Positions 5,139-30,458 of a stretch of 30,605 nt of DNA are shown here, in pieces. This DNA comes from a virus: IMG/VR virus record IMGVR_UViG_3300042691_030836, positions 1 through 30,605 of that record. One strand, written 5' to 3'. The first letter of the stretch is position 1, and each line of letters begins with the position of its first letter. The translations under genes and the position numbers were made by a program. Below the pieces are notes generated by a model, which was given only the letters and a program-made list of their open reading frames with translations, ran no database searches and had not been told where the DNA came from.

Positions 5139-5660
5139 ATGCCTACTTCACTCCGCACGAATATGCACCTTGAGTTGTCGGCTATCCTGGACGCGGGGAT
5201 CTCCGGGGTAAACGCACAGGCACAGGTCGGCATCGGCGCGCTCTCCGAAACCGTTTCGTGGACCGACGGGAACGGCTCGGGGCAGGCAAATCGAATCTAT
5301 TACGCTGAACGCACGCTGACTGCGGGCTCGAACGAAACCCTCGACTTGGCCGGCGTCCTGACGGATGTTTACGGTAACACTCTCACCTTCGCGAAGGTGC
5401 TGGTAATCGCCGTAAAGAATGTGGGGACGGTGGCTAGCCGGATTGAGTTTGGCCCCAATTCTTCTAATGGATTCGGGACCAATACGTTCTTCGGGGGGTC
5501 CACCCATCGAGTGAGCGTTAATATCAATTCGGGCGTAGCCGTCCTCTACGCTCCTGCGGGCGCGACCGTCACGGCGGGGACTGGCGATTTGCTGTACGTG
5601 GAAAACATGAGCGGGGTCAACGCGGCGACCTACCGGATCGCCATCCTCGGGACGACCTGA
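5139..5660 (+). CDS. Putative beta-rich structural protein
   Basis: This is a 173-residue protein starting one base after the previous stop. It is dominated by beta-strand-forming segments and small residues (ETLDLAGVLTDVYGNTLTFA, VLYAPAGATVTAGTGDLLYV) and has one cysteine-free fold-sized domain. The pattern resembles virion surface or minor capsid proteins found as single genes in environmental phage genomes. No enzymatic motif is visible. The ribosome site is weak (GAAGGA about eight bases upstream), so translation may be coupled to the upstream gene. Confidence 0.6.
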   Translation: MPTSLRTNMHLELSAILDAGISGVNAQAQVGIGALSETVSWTDGNGSGQANRIYYAERTLTAGSNETLDLAGVLTDVYGNTLTFAKVLVIAVKNVGTVASRIEFGPNSSNGFGTNTFFGGSTHRVSVNINSGVAVLYAPAGATVTAGTGDLLYVENMSGVNAATYRIAILGTT

Positions 5661-6962: not shown

Positions 6963-7460
6963 ATGGCCGTCGTAACCTCAAAGCTCGTCGCCAGTATCAT
7001 CGGCTCGGATGCCTCCGGGACGCCCGTAAACTACACTTTCGGCCCATTCCCCGGGAATATGGACCTCTCCCTCGAGGGCCTGCAGGCTGGCCAGGTCGAG
7101 GGTATCGCCGTGCTTTCGAACGGCACCTTTTTGGAAATGGTGGAGGGGGACGACGTCCCTGTGACGTTCAGCATTACTCTGCTGCATGACGGCAAGCTGA
7201 TCGATAATTCGACCGGAAAGCCGCTGAATATGGCGCTCAATCTCGGGACCTACGCCAGCGGAACCACCAAAGACCCGGGTGGGCTGGTGTGGTCCGTGGA
7301 TGTCGTCGTCACGATGACCCGTTCCGGGGTGTCGTCTACGATCACCCTGCGTAATTGCCGGCTGACTGCTTCTTTCGCCACCGCGAAGGAGGGCAACACC
7401 ATCAGCCTGTCGGGCACTGCCTATGGGACTGGCACCCTTCGCCCCGTGACGATCGCCTGA
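6963..7460 (+). CDS. Major tail tube protein
   Basis: This is probably the protein that stacks in rings to form the tail tube. ATG 6963 follows AAGGAGG with a short C-rich spacer, a strong ribosome site as expected for an abundant virion protein. The 165-residue product is beta-rich and ends in a segment (NCRLTASFATAKEGNTISLS) typical of tail-tube proteins, which finish with a strand pair and a Gly-rich turn. It lies just before the chaperone frameshift pair and the tape-measure gene, the classical order. Size fits siphovirus tube proteins. The fold itself needs structure prediction. Confidence 0.78.
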   Translation: MAVVTSKLVASIIGSDASGTPVNYTFGPFPGNMDLSLEGLQAGQVEGIAVLSNGTFLEMVEGDDVPVTFSITLLHDGKLIDNSTGKPLNMALNLGTYASGTTKDPGGLVWSVDVVVTMTRSGVSSTITLRNCRLTASFATAKEGNTISLSGTAYGTGTLRPVTIA

Positions 7461-7495: not shown

Positions 7496-7975
7496 ATGGA
7501 ATCCATCACCGTCGGACGCCGGGTAATCCCCATCGTCCCCCCCGATAGACTCGACATCGTCGCCTTGCTCGAGGCGTTCATCGCGGCTAGGAGCAAGCCC
7601 GCAGCGCTCGTCCGCCTGCGACTAGCAGCTATCGGGCTCGGGTGGTGGGCGGCAGTGGACTCCATGCCTGACCGGACCCCAGCAGACAAGGCAGAGCGAG
7701 CTGGGGCGAGGCCTCCGTTTGCCCGGCTCGAGGAGGTTGACTGCGACCTGTTGATCCTCGGGCGTCGGGTGGGGCAGGCCCTCGGGGATGACGCGGTCGA
7801 GGCCCGGGTCGAGGGTGACAGGCTGGCGGCGGATTGGTTCCGCCTGGTCCTCCCGTCGGATTCGGCGAGGGAGAATGCCCGGGGAAACTCCGAGGGGAGG
7901 GCGGTCGCTGGTGGCGCTACCTCCTCCGACTCGGGAGCCAGCATTACCGCGACCCCTTCGCCTGCTTCGAGCTAG
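7496..7975 (+). CDS. Tail assembly chaperone, gpG-like
   Basis: This is a 159-residue protein between the tail tube and tape-measure genes, the position of lambda gpG. ATG 7496 is chosen because GGAGA (7486-7490) lies five bases upstream; GTG 7484 is an in-frame alternative. The N-terminal part is compact and helical (ALLEAFIAARSKPAALVRLR, GLGWWAAVDSMPDRT). The last 28 residues, after the slippery site at 7882-7888, are Ser/Ala/Thr-rich and poorly structured, as expected where a frameshift gives the other, functional end. These chaperones bind the tape measure and recruit tube protein, and are absent from virions. The longer product is annotated separately. Confidence 0.8.
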   Translation: MESITVGRRVIPIVPPDRLDIVALLEAFIAARSKPAALVRLRLAAIGLGWWAAVDSMPDRTPADKAERAGARPPFARLEEVDCDLLILGRRVGQALGDDAVEARVEGDRLAADWFRLVLPSDSARENARGNSEGRAVAGGATSSDSGASITATPSPASS

Positions 7976-8118
7976 ACCCCCGGAGGCTGGCCATGTTGAT
8001 CGAATGGGATCAAATCGAGCGCGAAGAAGAACAGCGCACGGACACCCCATCCGATAGCGTGGCCCCTGCCCCCGATGCAGAGCCCGGCGAGCGATTCGCT
8101 TGGCTCATGGGGGGATGA
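7496..8118 (+). CDS. Tail assembly chaperone fusion, gpGT-like (-1 frameshift)
   Basis: This is the predicted long product made when ribosomes slip back one base at GGGAAAC (7882-7888). It consists of 131 residues of the gpG-like frame followed by 76 residues read in the -1 frame from CTC at 7888 to the stop at 8116-8118. The -1 frame is open only after 7818 and has no good ribosome site of its own, yet its product looks like real protein (GGRWWRYLLRLGSQHYRDPF, LAMLIEWDQIEREEE). The codons CGG GGA AAC place the heptamer in the correct X XXY YYZ phase. The lambda G/T genes use GGGAAAG. In that system the T part binds tube protein and the G part coats the tape measure. Confidence 0.75.
7882..7888 (+). 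other. -1 ribosomal frameshift slippery site GGGAAAC
   Basis: The heptamer G GGA AAC is in zero-frame phase X XXY YYZ and allows both tRNAs to re-pair with GGG and AAA after a one-base slip. It lies within the short overlap where the gpG frame and the downstream frame are both open (7819-7975), between tail tube and tape-measure genes. A GC-rich stretch follows (7890-7925) that could form a stimulating structure. It differs from the lambda slip site only in the last base. Confidence 0.75.
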
Positions 8119-8639
8119 TGGTCAGCGATCGATTCTGGCGGATTCAATCTGACTTCTGGAACTCGCATCCCCGAGCGCAGAAGAAGGCGGAAAAGCTATA
8201 TATCCGCGACAAGCCAGGCCAGCGGGTGTGGGCTTACTTGAATGATGGTTCGCAGTGGGTGGCCAAACCGCGAAAGAATCCGGAAGGGATGTACTTTTCG
8301 GTGGTCCGCCTTGATCCGAAGCTTCAATCAGACATGCTTCGATTGATTACCGACCTTGCCCCGATGCTCACGGATGCGTTTGATCGGCATTTCGGGCAGC
8401 TTGTGATCGATGCGTTCTTCGCGTGGCCGGAAAAGACGGGCCTGTCTAAATCTATGCTCGAACTGCGTTACTTCACGACCAATAATGCAGAGCGGTTCCA
8501 CGGGGCCATCGTCCCCCGGGCTCCTTATTCGATTTATATCAAAGGCCGTCCGTTCTATCGGTTGCTCGAATCACAAGCGATTCCAACCGCCACGAAAATC
8601 GCCGATGCGGTAAAGCTGGGGTTCCGTCGCCATGAGTAG
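8118..8639 (+). CDS. HK97-gp10-like tail/neck protein
   Basis: This is a 173-residue protein between the chaperones and the tape measure. ATG 8118 is chosen over 8115 because the GGGGGG run (8109-8114) ends directly before 8115. The middle has an AWPEKTGLSKSMLELRY segment like the Trp/Pro-x-x-Thr-Gly-x-Leu-x-x-Ser signature of HK97 gp10-type neck or tail-completion proteins. Later strands (APYSIYIKGRPFY) and a C-terminal helix agree with that fold. In most genomes this family lies before the tail tube gene, so the position here is unusual. Alternatively it may be a tail-tip adaptor with a related fold. It overlaps the tape measure start by eight bases. Confidence 0.55.
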   Translation: MVSDRFWRIQSDFWNSHPRAQKKAEKLYIRDKPGQRVWAYLNDGSQWVAKPRKNPEGMYFSVVRLDPKLQSDMLRLITDLAPMLTDAFDRHFGQLVIDAFFAWPEKTGLSKSMLELRYFTTNNAERFHGAIVPRAPYSIYIKGRPFYRLLESQAIPTATKIADAVKLGFRRHE

Positions 8640-10626
8640 CTACACCCTCGAGATCATCGGAAGCATTGCACAAGCGCAAAAGGAATTCGCCAAGATTCCT
8701 GGCTTTACCGAGTCAGCAGCGGCCAAAGCTGCGATGGCGTGGGCAAAGAATCAGGAGAAGATGCGTCGAGAGGCAGAGAAGACGGCAAATAAGATTGCGA
8801 AGGAGATGGATGGAGCGTCGCAAGATGCCGGGAAAAGCCTCGACGCGCTGAAAACAATTGGAGAGAAATCGATCGGTGGAATCGTCGGGGACCTGGCCGA
8901 TATGGCTGGCGCGTTGGGGGCGCTCGGGCCGGCGGGGATGCTGGCGGTCGGTGGCCTGCTGGCGATCGGTGGCGCTGCAGTCGGTATCGCGGCGACCGTG
9001 ACTGCGGTGATCGAGCTCGAGCGGGCGGCGCTCGATTACGTGGCGGCTCTCGAGGAGGTCGACGCTATCGACCTCGTCACCGACGCGCAAAAGCAGCAGG
9101 TCCTCGAGGCTAACGCGGCGCTCGATGCGCTCGGCATGGTCGCGAAATCGCTTGCAGTCGTGCTCGCTGCCGAGTTGGGGCCGGCTATCGCGGATACCGC
9201 TATTTTCTTAGCGGACATCGGATTGCAATTCCTCGATGTTGCGAATGCAGTGTTTCGGACTCATTCGCTGCTGGAATCATTGGCGATTGCATTCGTCGAC
9301 ACGTTCGCCCGGTCGCTGATTCAGCCGATCGAAATGATGATGAGATTCCATCAAGCGCTTGCTTTTGTGGAGCAGTCGCTAGGGGTGACGGACGGCGTAA
9401 ATAGTAAGATTTACGCGAGCTATGAGCGCTTGGTCGGCGGCATCGGTCGGACGGTAACCGGATTCGATGGACTGAAGGATTCCGCGACCGAAACGAATGG
9501 TGAAATGAGCCGAGGGGAGCGGTTGGCGGCAGAGCTGGCGAGCAAACTGTCAGCGTCCAGCGCGGCGACCCACGGAGCGGCCAGCGCGCATCGGCAGGCG
9601 GCGGACGGAGCCAGGCAACACGCAGCGGCAACCGCGTCCCTCCTCGGGATTATTGCCGAGTCAGGGCAGGACGAGCTTACCGATTTCCAGCGGCAAACCG
9701 TAGAAATCGAATCAGCCTACCAGCGTCGGGTGGATGCCGCTACCGAGGCCTATGGCAAATCCGCCCAAGCCGCACAGGACCTCGCCCTCCTAGAGCAGGC
9801 TCTGTCCGAGGCAGCAGCCCGACGGGACCGGGACCGCACGGACGCGGAGCTAGCCGACCTCGAGCGGCGCACGCAGGCCGAGCTATCGGCGCTGGCAGTG
9901 GTCGAACAGGCCAAGGCCGATGAGCGAGCCAGAGAGCAAGCGGCCCTCGATGAGGCTGCGGCGAGGCAGGCCGAGCGGGATGCGTCGACCGCTGCGGCTA
10001 TGGAGGCGCTGCAAGCGAGGTTCACTCAGTTATTGTTTGAGCGGATTTCCATGGTGCACGAAACCATGGCAGAAGAAAGGCAAGCGAATATTGCGGCGCT
10101 TGAGGAGCGTCTAGCCAACGATGAGCACTTGACCGCCGCAAAGCGACAGGAGTTGCAGACCCGCTTGGACACCGAGCGCAACGCGCTGACGGCAACAGCG
10201 AGGGCACAAAGGGCCGTGACTGCGTTTCAGATTTTGCTGCAGGGTGCCCTTGCTATGGTGCAGGCCGTGGCTGTAGCTCCTCCACCATTCAACGCGGCTA
10301 CGATCGCGGCACAAGCTGCATTGGTGGCGCTCAATACTGCTGCGGCATTAGCCGCACCCTTGCCGAAATTTCATTCGGGGTCAGGTCGCATGGCCCCGGA
10401 CGAGACGCCAGCGATTATTCGCAGGGGTGAGGCGGTTCTTTCGGAACGAGCGGTGCAGGAGCTAAACCGAGGGAACATGGGCGTGCTGAATCAGCCGCAG
10501 ATCCAACAGGTCTTCTGGAACGGGCGGCTTTTGTCCGAGGTGATGGGGATGGCGTTCGCGACTCCGGGGCCTGCTCGACGATTTGTCGAAGCTCGGATGC
10601 CGACTGGACGCGGATATAGAGGCTAA
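8632..10626 (+). CDS. Tail tape-measure protein
   Basis: This 664-residue protein is expected to set tail length and later leave the tail with the DNA. It is Ala-rich and helical throughout. Hydrophobic segments lie at residues about 89-127 and again near 165-200 and 535-580, and may form membrane-spanning parts during DNA entry. Long charged coiled-coil stretches cover roughly residues 345-520. Near the end, FHSGSGRMAPDETPAIIRRG followed by EAVLSERAVQEL matches the common C-terminal signature of tape measures (F-H-x-G-G ... G-E-A-V-L). At about 1.5 angstrom per residue the tail would be near 100 nm. It follows the chaperones that normally assist it. No lytic transglycosylase or peptidase domain was seen inside it. 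Confidence 0.88.
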   Translation: MSSYTLEIIGSIAQAQKEFAKIPGFTESAAAKAAMAWAKNQEKMRREAEKTANKIAKEMDGASQDAGKSLDALKTIGEKSIGGIVGDLADMAGALGALGPAGMLAVGGLLAIGGAAVGIAATVTAVIELERAALDYVAALEEVDAIDLVTDAQKQQVLEANAALDALGMVAKSLAVVLAAELGPAIADTAIFLADIGLQFLDVANAVFRTHSLLESLAIAFVDTFARSLIQPIEMMMRFHQALAFVEQSLGVTDGVNSKIYASYERLVGGIGRTVTGFDGLKDSATETNGEMSRGERLAAELASKLSASSAATHGAASAHRQAADGARQHAAATASLLGIIAESGQDELTDFQRQTVEIESAYQRRVDAATEAYGKSAQAAQDLALLEQALSEAAARRDRDRTDAELADLERRTQAELSALAVVEQAKADERAREQAALDEAAARQAERDASTAAAMEALQARFTQLLFERISMVHETMAEERQANIAALEERLANDEHLTAAKRQELQTRLDTERNALTATARAQRAVTAFQILLQGALAMVQAVAVAPPPFNAATIAAQAALVALNTAAALAAPLPKFHSGSGRMAPDETPAIIRRGEAVLSERAVQELNRGNMGVLNQPQIQQVFWNGRLLSEVMGMAFATPGPARRFVEARMPTGRGYRG

Positions 10627-10700: not shown

Positions 10701-13700
10701 ATGGGAAACCGAATCATTCCAGCGAACGGGCGAGCGGCCTTGGTCGGGTTCGGGCTGCCGGATGTGCGGCTGACGCTCGATGAGCTGCAGAGCGGGTCGA
10801 GCTACACCCAGTCAGGCCCCCACCCCGGGTCCGATGTCCCGAGCAGCTCGACGTCGCAGTGGAGCCTAGTGGTCAGCGGCGAGCAGTCCTCGACGCTGTA
10901 TGTCAGGGCCGCTAACAGTGGACTCCCAGAACCGGGGGGGGCTGAGGCTATCTACAGCGACGGGACGGCGGCTTCGACCTATCGCGGATGGTCGCCATCC
11001 AACCTGCTGTGCAACTGGAACGCGGCCGAATATTCCCCGGTTGGGACGCTGGTTTATGCCCGGGGGACTCCGAGTGTTGCCGTCATCCCCAGCAGCCAGA
11101 AGATCGCGGTCGCATACAACAGCGATACGACGTTGTATTTCCGGCTGTACGACCCGTTCACGAATACTTACGGGGCGAGGAAGACGATCTCGACGGCGCT
11201 CTCCTCTGGCAGTCTCACCGCGATTTGTTGTCTCCCGAGGTCCGAGCGGCTGTTGATCGTGGTGGCGGGCCCCAATGACCTCATCGGAGTCGCATGGTAT
11301 AGCGACGACGACGGCTCGACCTGGACGCAGTATGCCGCAGCGGTATTCAATTCTGGCGACATCCTTACCGGGGGGAATTGGGTAAAGTGTCGGATGTATG
11401 CTGTTGGCGACGATATCGTATGGATGATGTATGCCGATAATAATCGGTTCTATATCTTTTCATCGGCGTCCCTCGGGAGCAATTGGACGCGGGTGGCATA
11501 CAAGACCGGCGTGTATCGCTCGGATGGAGCTCCTCTGCCTGACGGCCGGATGCTGTACATCCAGCAGTCTACCTCGACGGGCAGTCCAAAGGCAGTCATC
11601 GTCCCGAGTGTTTGGGATTCTCCGGATTTCACCAATGCAACGAATATCGGGAGCCCTACTCTGCAGCCGGTCGAAATGGCGTGCGTGGTCGAGCCCTCGG
11701 GCCAGCTCGTCCTGTATGCGAGGGAGGGTGGGTATTGGTACGTCTGGCGCTCGGATGACGGCAACGAAACGTGGTCGAAGTCGGAAATGGGGGCGTGGAC
11801 GTCGGGTAACGCGGTGACCACGACGTACCCCACCGATATCGCGTTGGTCTTGGGTGCAGGGGCAACATGGCTGGCGCATCGGTGGAATGCAGCGGTAGGG
11901 GACGAGGGCACGGCGTCCGTTGCGCTGGCGCAGTTTGGAGGATGGTCCAACCTTATCAGCGGATACCCGAAGTATACCACCCGGCAATATGATGTCGGGG
12001 ATGGGGAGCGGCTAGGATTCGGAATTACGGGGCTGGTGGGGTCGAGCGGTGGTGGGAATATTGTTTTTACCCACACCTGGGCACCATTCGACGTCCCGAG
12101 CGACAATACGGCGCAGTGGTCAGCGACCGGCACGGGGACGGCGACTCTTTCGAATGATTCGCTCGATATCTCCACCACAAGCCAGACAAAATACTACAGC
12201 AACGTTCCGACCTATGCGACGTCCGCAAACGGGAAAATGGTGCTTCTGGCTGACGTCCAGGTGGTGTCAGGTGGTGCAGTGGCCACGAATGATATCGCCA
12301 TCCGAATCAAGATGTCGACCGGGTCCACCGGGGTTGATTTCGCGATTCGATTCAAGACAGATACTATCCGAGTCCGCGATATCAATGGCGCGACCAATTA
12401 CGATGTGTCGGTAGACTGTACTTCCCGGGTGCAGGTATTCGCAGGCGTCCAGCCTGACGGGACCGTCGATGTGGCTTGGCGGCGACCATATGAGACCAAG
12501 TGGACCAAGATCGCCGGGGCTAACTTCACTCTCGACGCGTCAATCACGACGAACAGCCTACAGTGGGGTCACCTGGCATCGGGCACGGCCAATAGCCGTT
12601 GGCGGCTGCTTTGTATTGCCCAAGACCTCCCGCAGTCCGCTTACCGATTCGCGGATTCGGTCACGACGTCCCTCCGGTCGCTCTACGGGCGGATTCTGAC
12701 TGCTCGGCCTGTCCCGCTCGGGGATACGGCGACGGCTGGAGCTACGTTCCTGTCTGCCATTAGCGGGCCTGCAATCTATAACGAATTGCATACCATCGAT
12801 CCGGTATATGATTACGGGGCTGAACGCATCTTCTGGGATATATCGCCATCCCTCGCTGAAGAATGGCGGTCGACGGGGACGACGGAAGCTATATTCGAGT
12901 GGGCACCATCGGAAGTCTCCAAAACCACCGACACGCAGCTCGGGTCGCGCTCGCTCGTCGTCGGCTTCTTCGGCGCGAACTTCAAGACGGCATACCTCGA
13001 GGCGGATGCAGGCTCGGGCTACGTCACCCTCGGGACGTACAACGGCGCAACGGGCTTTGACACTGGGCTAACCGCGACTGTGGCTGGCGATCAGGTGACT
13101 CCGAACACGTCCACCACAGCGGACGGCGGGCGCTATCTGCAGCGGTCGGAGCTGGTCGGCGCGGTGGCGGTGGTCAACGGAACATACTGCTATATCACGC
13201 GTCAGGAGGAGGGCGGCTGGACGCAGAGTGATACCCGGCGGGCTCGATTGACCGTTGACCGAGCGGTGACCAGCGGTGCGGTTACGCTCATCGCCCGAAA
13301 TGGGCTCTTGGTCGTGCACAATATCACGACGGCATACCGAAAGTATCGAATCCGCATCCCCTCACAGTCGACTCCGGATTCGTTCTTCCGGCTTGCAGCG
13401 CTCGTCGTCGGGGGGCTCGTCGTCCCCGGGCTGCCGTGGGACTGGGGATGGAGCGAGCAGCTCGAGGGCAATACCACCGATGAGGTAAGCCGCCGGGGGA
13501 CGCTGCGCCGAAAGCAGGAAGGCCCACCTAGGAAGGCGCTTACCTTCTCGTGGTCGACGTCCGGGGCTCCGTTGTATCGGCTGCGATCGGGGGTAAACCT
13601 CGATTACCTGTCGCCTCATTCCTCGATCGGGGCGGCGGGAGCGGTCGCGACATATAAGGACGTTCCTTGGCTTATGTCAGGGCTCATGCGTGACTGCGGC

Positions 13701-13889
13701 TCCGGGGAGATTCCGGTAATCGCATTGAAGGTCGTTCCGGATGTGGCGAGCTCGGCATCAGTCACCGACCCCACCCACTGGGTCTACGGTCGCTTGGACG
13801 GGTCCGTGCAGCAGGCCCAGGTGAGCGGACGGACAGGCCAATCCGAATATGTCCGGGTCGAGTCAATGACCGTCCGGGAGATCGTCTGA
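10701..13889 (+). CDS. Large tail protein with sialidase-like (Asp-box) propeller
   Basis: This is a 1062-residue protein directly after the tape measure, where the distal tail protein is expected. ATG 10701 follows a GGGGGG run; an in-frame stop lies at 10668-10670. Residues about 110-440 contain Asp-box motifs typical of BNR beta-propellers: SDDDGSTW (201-208), a degenerate copy near 254-262 and SDDGNETW (351-358). Residues about 470-650 look like a concanavalin/LamG-type jelly roll. The C-terminal 400 residues hold more beta-rich modules and may contain the tail-anchoring part. It probably forms the tail tip and binds surface glycans. Whether it is a working glycosidase cannot be judged, because the catalytic Arg triad was not traced. 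A run of eight Gs at 10934-10941 lies inside the gene. Confidence 0.7.
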   Translation: MGNRIIPANGRAALVGFGLPDVRLTLDELQSGSSYTQSGPHPGSDVPSSSTSQWSLVVSGEQSSTLYVRAANSGLPEPGGAEAIYSDGTAASTYRGWSPSNLLCNWNAAEYSPVGTLVYARGTPSVAVIPSSQKIAVAYNSDTTLYFRLYDPFTNTYGARKTISTALSSGSLTAICCLPRSERLLIVVAGPNDLIGVAWYSDDDGSTWTQYAAAVFNSGDILTGGNWVKCRMYAVGDDIVWMMYADNNRFYIFSSASLGSNWTRVAYKTGVYRSDGAPLPDGRMLYIQQSTSTGSPKAVIVPSVWDSPDFTNATNIGSPTLQPVEMACVVEPSGQLVLYAREGGYWYVWRSDDGNETWSKSEMGAWTSGNAVTTTYPTDIALVLGAGATWLAHRWNAAVGDEGTASVALAQFGGWSNLISGYPKYTTRQYDVGDGERLGFGITGLVGSSGGGNIVFTHTWAPFDVPSDNTAQWSATGTGTATLSNDSLDISTTSQTKYYSNVPTYATSANGKMVLLADVQVVSGGAVATNDIAIRIKMSTGSTGVDFAIRFKTDTIRVRDINGATNYDVSVDCTSRVQVFAGVQPDGTVDVAWRRPYETKWTKIAGANFTLDASITTNSLQWGHLASGTANSRWRLLCIAQDLPQSAYRFADSVTTSLRSLYGRILTARPVPLGDTATAGATFLSAISGPAIYNELHTIDPVYDYGAERIFWDISPSLAEEWRSTGTTEAIFEWAPSEVSKTTDTQLGSRSLVVGFFGANFKTAYLEADAGSGYVTLGTYNGATGFDTGLTATVAGDQVTPNTSTTADGGRYLQRSELVGAVAVVNGTYCYITRQEEGGWTQSDTRRARLTVDRAVTSGAVTLIARNGLLVVHNITTAYRKYRIRIPSQSTPDSFFRLAALVVGGLVVPGLPWDWGWSEQLEGNTTDEVSRRGTLRRKQEGPPRKALTFSWSTSGAPLYRLRSGVNLDYLSPHSSIGAAGAVATYKDVPWLMSGLMRDCGSGEIPVIALKVVPDVASSASVTDPTHWVYGRLDGSVQQAQVSGRTGQSEYVRVESMTVREIV

Positions 13890-24388: not shown

Positions 24389-24612
24389 ACTCGGCGCGCC
24401 AGTACCGGGACCGCCTTGAAGAACGCGAAGCCCTGCTCGACTCCCGAGCGGAGCGGCTACAACAACAGGCTAACCTCCTGGCGATTGCCGGGCCGTGGGG
24501 CGCGTTCCTCGGGCCGGATGGGCTCGAATCTGCCCTGACGAGGACGATCAGAGTCCACGGCCACCAGCTCGACGAGGCAGCCCGAGAGCGGTTGCGGGAT
24601 TTGCTCCGATGA
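24385..24612 (+). CDS. Small helical protein
   Basis: This is a 75-residue protein. ATG 24385 follows GGGGGAG and overlaps the previous stop by four bases (ATGA). It begins with an Arg/Glu-rich coiled coil (YRDRLEEREALLDSRAERLQ) and ends in a second helix (HQLDEAARERLRDLLR). Four-base coupling to the PAPS-reductase-like gene downstream suggests joint function or merely operon packing. Family unknown. Confidence 0.5.
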   Translation: MNSARQYRDRLEEREALLDSRAERLQQQANLLAIAGPWGAFLGPDGLESALTRTIRVHGHQLDEAARERLRDLLR

Positions 24613-25553
24613 TTCCTCACTACCTACATCCGAAAATCATCGTTAGCGTTAGCGGCGGCAAAGATTCAACTGCGACTTGTTTACATCTTCGGGATCTCGG
24701 CATCCCTTACCAAGCGGTCTTCATGGACGTCGGTTGGGATAATGCAGCGACCTATGACTATCTGCGGCACGACTTACCATCAATCATCGGGCCGATTACG
24801 TGGCTCCGTCAAGAAGTCCCACTAGTCGAAGGGTACGAGGACGCAACTCTGGAAATTGAACGCTGTTTAGGCATTTCACCTAGCAGCATGGTTCGGATGT
24901 GCGTGTGGAAGGGTGTTTTTCCGTCTAGGGTCATGCGCTGGTGTACGGAACATCTCAAAGTCAAACCTGCGATCGAACATTTCAAGGCTCACAAAGCCGA
25001 TGATGTTGTGGTGGTTAATGCTATCGGAGTTCGACGGGCCGAAAGTAGGGCGCGATCGGTGCTGCCGGAGTGGGAATGGTCGGCAGCGCATGGTGGGCTG
25101 CTGGTGTGGCGACCTTTGATCGACTGGTCAGAGGATCAAGTCATCCAACTACACCGACGCCACGGAGTTCGACCAAATCCAAATTATCTCTTTGGTGCTT
25201 TGCGGGTTGGATGTTGGCCGTGCATTTTCGCACGAAAGGATGAAATTCGACGCATCGCGGACACAGATCCAAACAGGATCAAAGCGATGCAGATGTTGGA
25301 AACCTTGGTGGCAGAACGGGCCAGGGACAGACGCATCAAAAACGGAAAACCGCTTGGTTGGAAACCAACGTGGTTCCAAAATCCGACAAGCGCACTAACC
25401 GAAGATGGGCGGCGCGATGGTAGTACCTGGGAAATTGACCGGGTGGTCAATTGGTCGAGGACGAGCCGAGGCGGGCGACAGTTTGAGCTGTTCACGCTAC
25501 CGGATACCGAGGCCGGGTGCTTTCGGTGGGGCATGTGCGAGAAGCCCGAATGA
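24609..25553 (+). CDS. PAPS reductase / DndC-like adenylyl-sulfur enzyme
   Basis: This is a 314-residue protein of the adenine-nucleotide alpha-hydrolase (PP-loop) superfamily. SGGKDST at residues 15-21 is the PP-loop. W111-C112 followed by TEHLKVKP, R142/R143/E145/S146 and the GCWPC pair (C202, C205) are shared by phage-borne PAPS reductases and by the DndC sulfur-transfer protein. C304 and C310 near the end may complete an iron-sulfur site. Possible roles are sulfur metabolism, DNA phosphorothioation or another nucleotide modification; no dnd partners are present here. The gene looks more AT-rich than its flanks and lacks the GTCGAC words common elsewhere, so it may be a recent acquisition. 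It is tightly coupled to its upstream neighbour (ATGA). Confidence 0.8.
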   Translation: MIPHYLHPKIIVSVSGGKDSTATCLHLRDLGIPYQAVFMDVGWDNAATYDYLRHDLPSIIGPITWLRQEVPLVEGYEDATLEIERCLGISPSSMVRMCVWKGVFPSRVMRWCTEHLKVKPAIEHFKAHKADDVVVVNAIGVRRAESRARSVLPEWEWSAAHGGLLVWRPLIDWSEDQVIQLHRRHGVRPNPNYLFGALRVGCWPCIFARKDEIRRIADTDPNRIKAMQMLETLVAERARDRRIKNGKPLGWKPTWFQNPTSALTEDGRRDGSTWEIDRVVNWSRTSRGGRQFELFTLPDTEAGCFRWGMCEKPE

Positions 25554-28904: not shown

Positions 28905-30458
28905 ATGAACGTCATTATCGGCCCACCGGGCACCGGAAAGACCACGACCATCCTGACGATCATCGAGGAGGCGCTCGCCAAAGGCACACCGCCGGGTAGG
29001 ATCGGGCTCGTCAGCTTCACTAGGGCCGCAGTCGGCGAAGCGATCGAGCGGGCGTCAAAGCGGTTTGGAATTGACCCGAAGGAATTCCGATATTTCAGAA
29101 CTTTGCATTCTTTGGGTTTTGAACTTTCGGGCAGAGACCGTAAGGTGGTGACGGAGGCCCAGGTCGCCCAGTGGCAGGCGGACGCGGGCTACGGGGGACA
29201 GGTCGAGGCTGACCTCGAGGGGTGGGATGCCGCCCGACCTGACGCGGTAGCAGCCGTGTGGGAGCTGTCCCGGTCGCTGCGCCTGCATCCGAGACACGCG
29301 GCCGGACGCTGGCAGGGGGGCGAGGTCGACTGGCGAGCCGTCGAGAGGTACGGGGCACGGTATACGGCGTGGAAGCAGGAGATAGGGGCGATCGATTATA
29401 CCGACATGCTCGAGGGCGCACTGACAGTCGCGCCGCCTGCCCTCGACCTCCTTGCCATCGACGAGGCGCAGGACCTGTCACCGCTGCAGCAGGCCCTAGC
29501 AGCTCGGCTCCTCGGAGCGGCTCGGGAGGCCTATGTGGTCGGCGACGACGACCAAGCGATCCATGCATGGGCAGGGGCGGACGCGGGCTACCTGCAGCGG
29601 CTGGCAGAGGCCCACGGGTATCGCGTGCTGTCGCAGTCGTATCGGGTGCCTCGACTGGCCCACCGAGCGGCACAGTCCATCATCGGCCGGGTCCGACAGC
29701 GAGTCACTAAGGCATACGCTCCCCGGGACGAGCTCGGGGAGCTGACCTCGGCGGAATGGGGCCGGATGCTGGGATGCCGGCTCATGGGGGCGCTCTCGGA
29801 CGGTGCCGCCCTGCTTTGTCGCACCCGCCGGCAGCTCCACCTAGCCGGACGCTGGCTGCTCGAGGCGGGGATCCCGTATCGGTCAGAGCGTGGTGGCGTG
29901 GACCCGCTCGGAGCAGAGCGTCAGCTCGAGGCGGCGGTCGCGGTCTGCCGGCTGTCGCAGGGCCTACAGCCTAGGGCGGTCGACCTCCGCGCGCTGGCCA
30001 GTCACTGTCGAGCCGGGTCGACCCCAGGCTTGGCTCGAGGGACGCTGGCTCGGCTGCGCCGGGTGGACGTGGACCCGACTGACGGCGACCTCGACGACCT
30101 CGGGGCACGACCGCTGCTCGAGCGTGTCTATCGGGAGGGGATGGAGGCGCTCGACACTGTCGACCCGGAGGCCAGGCGGTACTATCGTCGCGTGCTGCAG
30201 ATTCGGGGCGGACTCCCACCCACGCTCACTCTGACGACTTGTCACGCATCCAAAGGCCGGGAATGGGCTCACGTGTTCATCGACGCGCAAATGACCCGAT
30301 ATCAAGCCAACAGCATCGAGGAGGCCACACCCATGGGCGACGACGAACATCGGGTGGCCTATGTCGCAGCCACCCGGACTAAATGCACACTCACGATTGT
30401 CCAGCCGGAAGGCGCGAAACCGCGATACCATTATCCGATATTCCGTCGTGCAGGTTGA
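28905..30458 (+). CDS. Superfamily 1 DNA helicase, UvrD/Rep type
   Basis: This 517-residue ATP-driven helicase probably unwinds the replication fork. Motifs appear in order: Walker A GPPGTGKT (6-13), motif Ia SFTRAAVGEA (37-46), Walker B LLAIDEAQD (182-190), motif III GDDDQAIHAWAGA (213-225), motif IV QSYRVP (244-249), motif V TCHASKGREW and motif VI VAYVAATR near residue 480. It is compact compared with UvrD (about 720), with short 1B/2B insertions. ATG 28905 is the first start and Walker A follows directly. The ribosome site is poor. It lies just after the repeat cluster and is the last complete gene. Confidence 0.92.
   Translation: MNVIIGPPGTGKTTTILTIIEEALAKGTPPGRIGLVSFTRAAVGEAIERASKRFGIDPKEFRYFRTLHSLGFELSGRDRKVVTEAQVAQWQADAGYGGQVEADLEGWDAARPDAVAAVWELSRSLRLHPRHAAGRWQGGEVDWRAVERYGARYTAWKQEIGAIDYTDMLEGALTVAPPALDLLAIDEAQDLSPLQQALAARLLGAAREAYVVGDDDQAIHAWAGADAGYLQRLAEAHGYRVLSQSYRVPRLAHRAAQSIIGRVRQRVTKAYAPRDELGELTSAEWGRMLGCRLMGALSDGAALLCRTRRQLHLAGRWLLEAGIPYRSERGGVDPLGAERQLEAAVAVCRLSQGLQPRAVDLRALASHCRAGSTPGLARGTLARLRRVDVDPTDGDLDDLGARPLLERVYREGMEALDTVDPEARRYYRRVLQIRGGLPPTLTLTTCHASKGREWAHVFIDAQMTRYQANSIEEATPMGDDEHRVAYVAATRTKCTLTIVQPEGAKPRYHYPIFRRAG

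Follow-up and report, generated by a model that had tools for sequence, protein, structure and literature searches.

A probable programmed −1 ribosomal frameshift in the presumed tail assembly chaperone gene of a long-tailed phage

RESULTS

Organization of the locus

The window, i.e. the whole stretch of DNA analysed, is a 30.6 kb virus record from IMG/VR with a G+C content of 61.6%. The presumed tail genes, and the features around a putative frameshift site within them, are as follows.

6963–7460, + strand: presumed tail tube protein, 165 aa, named by position
7496–7975, + strand: zero-frame ORF, gpG-like presumed tail assembly chaperone, 159 aa; ATG start with GGAG upstream; codon usage typical of the frame
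7868–7873, + strand: Shine-Dalgarno-like sequence AGGGAG, possible 5′ stimulator, 8 nt before the heptamer; read from the sequence
7882–7888, + strand: slippery heptamer G GGA AAC, in exact phase; conserved in a relative
7888–8118, + strand: −1 frame extension (T part), 76 aa, which would be reached by the shift; suggested by codon score, open in the relative
7893–7963, + strand: predicted 27-bp imperfect hairpin, presumed 3′ stimulator, starting 4 bases after the heptamer
7982–7995, + strand: GGAGG and ATG 7993, where internal initiation could produce the final 41 residues of the T frame; conserved in the relative
8118–8639, + strand: intervening gene, 173 aa, whose start overlaps the stop of the T frame
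8632–10626, + strand: presumed tape measure protein, 664 aa, named by position; Ala-rich (21%), with hydrophobic segments at about residues 94–130

Reading in the −1 frame meets no stop between 7819 and a TGA at 8118, and a slip at the heptamer would give a protein of 131 + 76 = 207 aa terminating at 8118. An earlier note on this DNA had described the overlap of the two frames, the 159- and 207-aa products and the end at 8118; all of these proved exact. The same note had placed the site between tail tube and tape measure genes: the order fits, but the site is not directly before the tape measure gene, as the 173-aa gene intervenes.

Slippery heptamer and flanking signals

In the frame of ORF 7496–7975 the sequence GGGAAAC is divided as G|GGA|AAC, which is the exact −1 slippery phase noticed earlier. 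As a bare string GGGAAAC is not enriched (2 found versus 3.6 expected, both strands). Slippery heptamers of the XXX AAA/TTT type located in phase were detected at only 2 of 7,494 codon positions in the 22 genes scanned, and the chance expectation is ∼0.014 in-phase heptamers within the ∼52 codon positions of the stretch that is open in both frames. The other in-phase heptamer, also GGGAAAC, overlaps the start codon of the gene at 10701–13889, which follows the tape measure gene and encodes a 1062-aa protein with no Pfam or PHROG match.

Stimulatory RNA structures a few bases 3′ of −1 slip sites are common but not universal. The hairpin predicted here has a folding energy of −41.4 kcal/mol, and none of 200 shuffled sequences was equally stable; its z-score of −3.62 is somewhat favoured, because the 71-base stretch was picked after viewing an earlier 102-base fold (z-score of only −1.17). 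Equally stable 71-base stretches make up a fraction of 0.0003 (0.03%) in the whole window, and 4 out of 1000 sequences obtained by synonymous resampling in either frame matched the stability of the hairpin. No 71-base stretch of the window folds more stably than one at 29991 (−44.5 kcal/mol; 29986–30066), within the helicase gene.

Coding potential and comparison with a relative

The codon score changes frame across the site. Before the site it is +0.24 in frame 0 and −0.19 in the −1 frame; beyond the zero-frame stop it is +0.17 in the −1 frame and −0.06 in frame 0. The 76-codon T part scores 0.13 (gene median 0.21, shifted-frame median −0.21), which is inside the 5–95% range of real genes (0.03 to 0.35) and outside the range of shifted frames (−0.35 to −0.07), in agreement with the earlier description of the downstream frame as protein-like up to 8118.

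Comparison of slip sites in related phages had been proposed as a check, and its outcome is favourable: in one relative, IMGVR_UViG_3300007734_000581 (94% nucleotide identity), the heptamer, the hairpin and both frames are kept without indels. The only change in the hairpin is C7947T, which retains a G-U pair; in the AGGGAG element GGGAG is retained and the first base is changed from A to C. The T part is likewise open in the relative, with 97% identity.

Codons changed between the two phages number 15 silent and 1 replacement in ORF 7496–7975 upstream of the slip site. Where the two frames were compared before the site, the changes are 3 silent and 1 replacement as read in frame 0, and 0 silent and 4 replacement as read in the −1 frame; in the overlap past the site the counts are 0 silent and 3 replacement in frame 0, and 2 and 1 in the −1 frame. 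Beyond the zero-frame stop the −1 frame has a further 2 silent and 1 replacement changes (4 and 2 over the whole length after the site). Silent changes thus appear to move from frame 0 to the −1 frame at the expected place, with tiny counts from one relative. In the intervening gene all 9 codon changes are silent.

Searches with several structural proteins (viral contigs, genome contigs and tblastn against phages) produced no relative other than this one. A scan with the helicase gave 42 further contigs with ∼30% identity; in the 20 of them that were searched there was no match to the 39–1604 protein or to the presumed tape measure protein.

Identity of the proteins

Neither the G part, nor the T part, nor the fused protein had a significant match in Pfam, PHROG, NCBIfam or PDB. 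No related phage was found in the GenBank phage collection, no homologue of the G or T part was detected beyond the one near relative, and profile comparison with the chaperone of Burkholderia phage KL1 found nothing. The AlphaFold model of the G part is weak (N-terminal strands followed by helices) and too poor for a fold search; that of the presumed tube protein is strand-rich, at very low confidence, and this protein had no family match above the cut-off. The tube and tape measure proteins are presumed from position and composition only. Because no family model or database phage matched, we infer the tail assembly chaperone role from gene position and from the frameshift itself; of the earlier statement that the site joins tail chaperones, the frameshift is supported, and the chaperone identity is taken from position only.

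For the intervening gene the only family matches were a below-cutoff match to Pfam CHU_C (E-value 0.00037) and a chance-level PHROG match. Elsewhere in the window, the gene at 24495–25553 encodes a PAPS reductase-domain protein (Pfam E-value 3.3e-19). The protein encoded at 5139–5660 matches phrog_22694 (E-value 1.6e-27) and has weak matches to a few proteins of Streptomyces, Microcystis, Bradyrhizobium and Micromonospora phages; it is the best link between structural genes of this lineage and named phages.

Comparison with known frameshifts

In phage lambda the heptamer is GGGAAAG and the tape measure gene follows directly, whereas here the heptamer is GGGAAAC and a 173-aa gene intervenes. 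The E. coli dnaX gene carries a Shine-Dalgarno-like AGGGAG ∼8 nt before its heptamer; an upstream AGGGAG and a stem-loop downstream of the heptamer are common to dnaX and the present site. At the dnaX heptamer, A AAA AAG, a shifted ribosome terminates one codon further on (PMC5009743); the shift proposed here would instead lengthen the protein.

Conservation of the G/GT shift is widespread among long-tailed phages (PMC5009743). In KL1 (gp18/gp19, JF939047) a −1 shift occurs in the gene at the chaperone position, with a gene located between the chaperone and tape measure genes, an order that the KL1 authors liken to HK97 and SPP1 (PMC3483164). We checked the KL1 sequence and found GGGAAAC in the same phase as at 7882–7888. 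The two phages share the heptamer, its phase, the −1 direction and the intervening gene before the tape measure gene, but have no detectable sequence similarity. In KL1 the zero-frame stop comes directly after the site, whereas 28 zero-frame codons follow the site here; downstream folding is less stable in KL1 (−19.3 kcal/mol across 71 bases), while the hairpin here is strong. The chaperone gene preceding the tape measure gene in Caulobacter phage Colossus also has a GGGAAAC slippery site (PMC3556154). A slippery motif, folding downstream of it and an internal ribosome binding site are already among the predictors used by PRFect (PMC10885494).

DISCUSSION

With a probability of about 0.9, we consider that a long-tailed phage here uses programmed −1 ribosomal frameshifting to express its tail assembly chaperone gene; as judged from the DNA, the −1 shift at 7882–7888 is very likely, and we infer both the occurrence of shifting and its rate. 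As looked for at an X XXY YYZ site, there is a right-phase heptamer in a two-frame overlap, a predicted RNA structure downstream and conservation (in one relative). Together with the frame switch in codon usage and substitutions, these features fit the lambda G/GT-type shift that the earlier note had proposed.

Most ribosomes would read 7496–7975 and produce the 159-aa gpG-like chaperone. A minority would pause at the hairpin, with pairing of AGGGAG to 16S rRNA perhaps assisting the slip; tRNAs on GGA AAC would re-pair with GGG AAA, and reading would resume at CTC 7888 to give the 207-aa GT-like protein. If lambda is a guide, the portion common to both products may bind the tape measure protein and the T part may recruit the tail tube subunit.

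The frame break could be an assembly error or mark a decayed gene, with the heptamer a coincidence, and both this phage and its relative are indeed metagenome assemblies. The relative nevertheless has an identical layout at 94% nucleotide identity, with no indel and both frames open, and the rarity of in-phase heptamers speaks against coincidence. We rejected assembly error on the identical layout and regard this whole explanation as extremely improbable. A less remote explanation, though still very unlikely, is that the T frame is expressed solely as a 41-aa protein starting at ATG 7993, and that the presence of the heptamer is incidental. The downstream frame had been said to have no start site of its own; this needs correction, as there is a plausible start at ATG 7993, just past the zero-frame stop, with GGAGG at the usual spacing six bases upstream, and the relative has kept both. 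Such a start covers only the last 41 of 76 residues, and GGAGG is in any case just part of the Arg-Arg codons of the T frame. The 35 codons at 7888–7992 are unexplained by it, yet show the −1-frame substitution pattern, and an exclusive start at ATG 7993 does not account for the heptamer together with the hairpin. Since these bases stay unexplained, ATG 7993 would be an addition or a minor rival; our low estimate is for the exclusive version, and the start may also act alongside the frameshift. Peptides from LRGEGGRWWRYLLRLGSQHYRDPF would be incompatible with exclusive initiation at ATG 7993.

It is also unlikely, if somewhat less so, that the programmed frameshift is real and that the tail protein it yields is not a chaperone. 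The G and T parts lack homology to any chaperone family, whereas the KL1 chaperone matches PHROG chaperone models with E-value 6e-49; against this stand the gene's place after the presumed tube gene and ahead of the presumed tape measure gene, the sizes of the products and the N-terminal strands followed by helices in the weak model. We retain the reading as a frameshifted tail assembly chaperone gene. An extended version of it, which we find similarly doubtful, is that a dnaX-like three-part signal (internal Shine-Dalgarno sequence, heptamer and 27-bp hairpin) might cause ribosomes to shift at an unusually high rate in a family of tail chaperones with no sequence relationship to those already known, with an additional separate 41-aa T product made from ATG 7993.

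The frameshift mechanism is already well known, and the strength of the hairpin is the most notable feature here. The presumed event would add a phage lineage with hardly any database relatives to those that use the G/GT frameshift and would support synteny-based naming of its tail genes; ordinary gene calling is expected to miss the fused product. The strong hairpin combined with the internal Shine-Dalgarno-like element would make this site convenient for a reporter test of what sets the ratio of the two chaperones.
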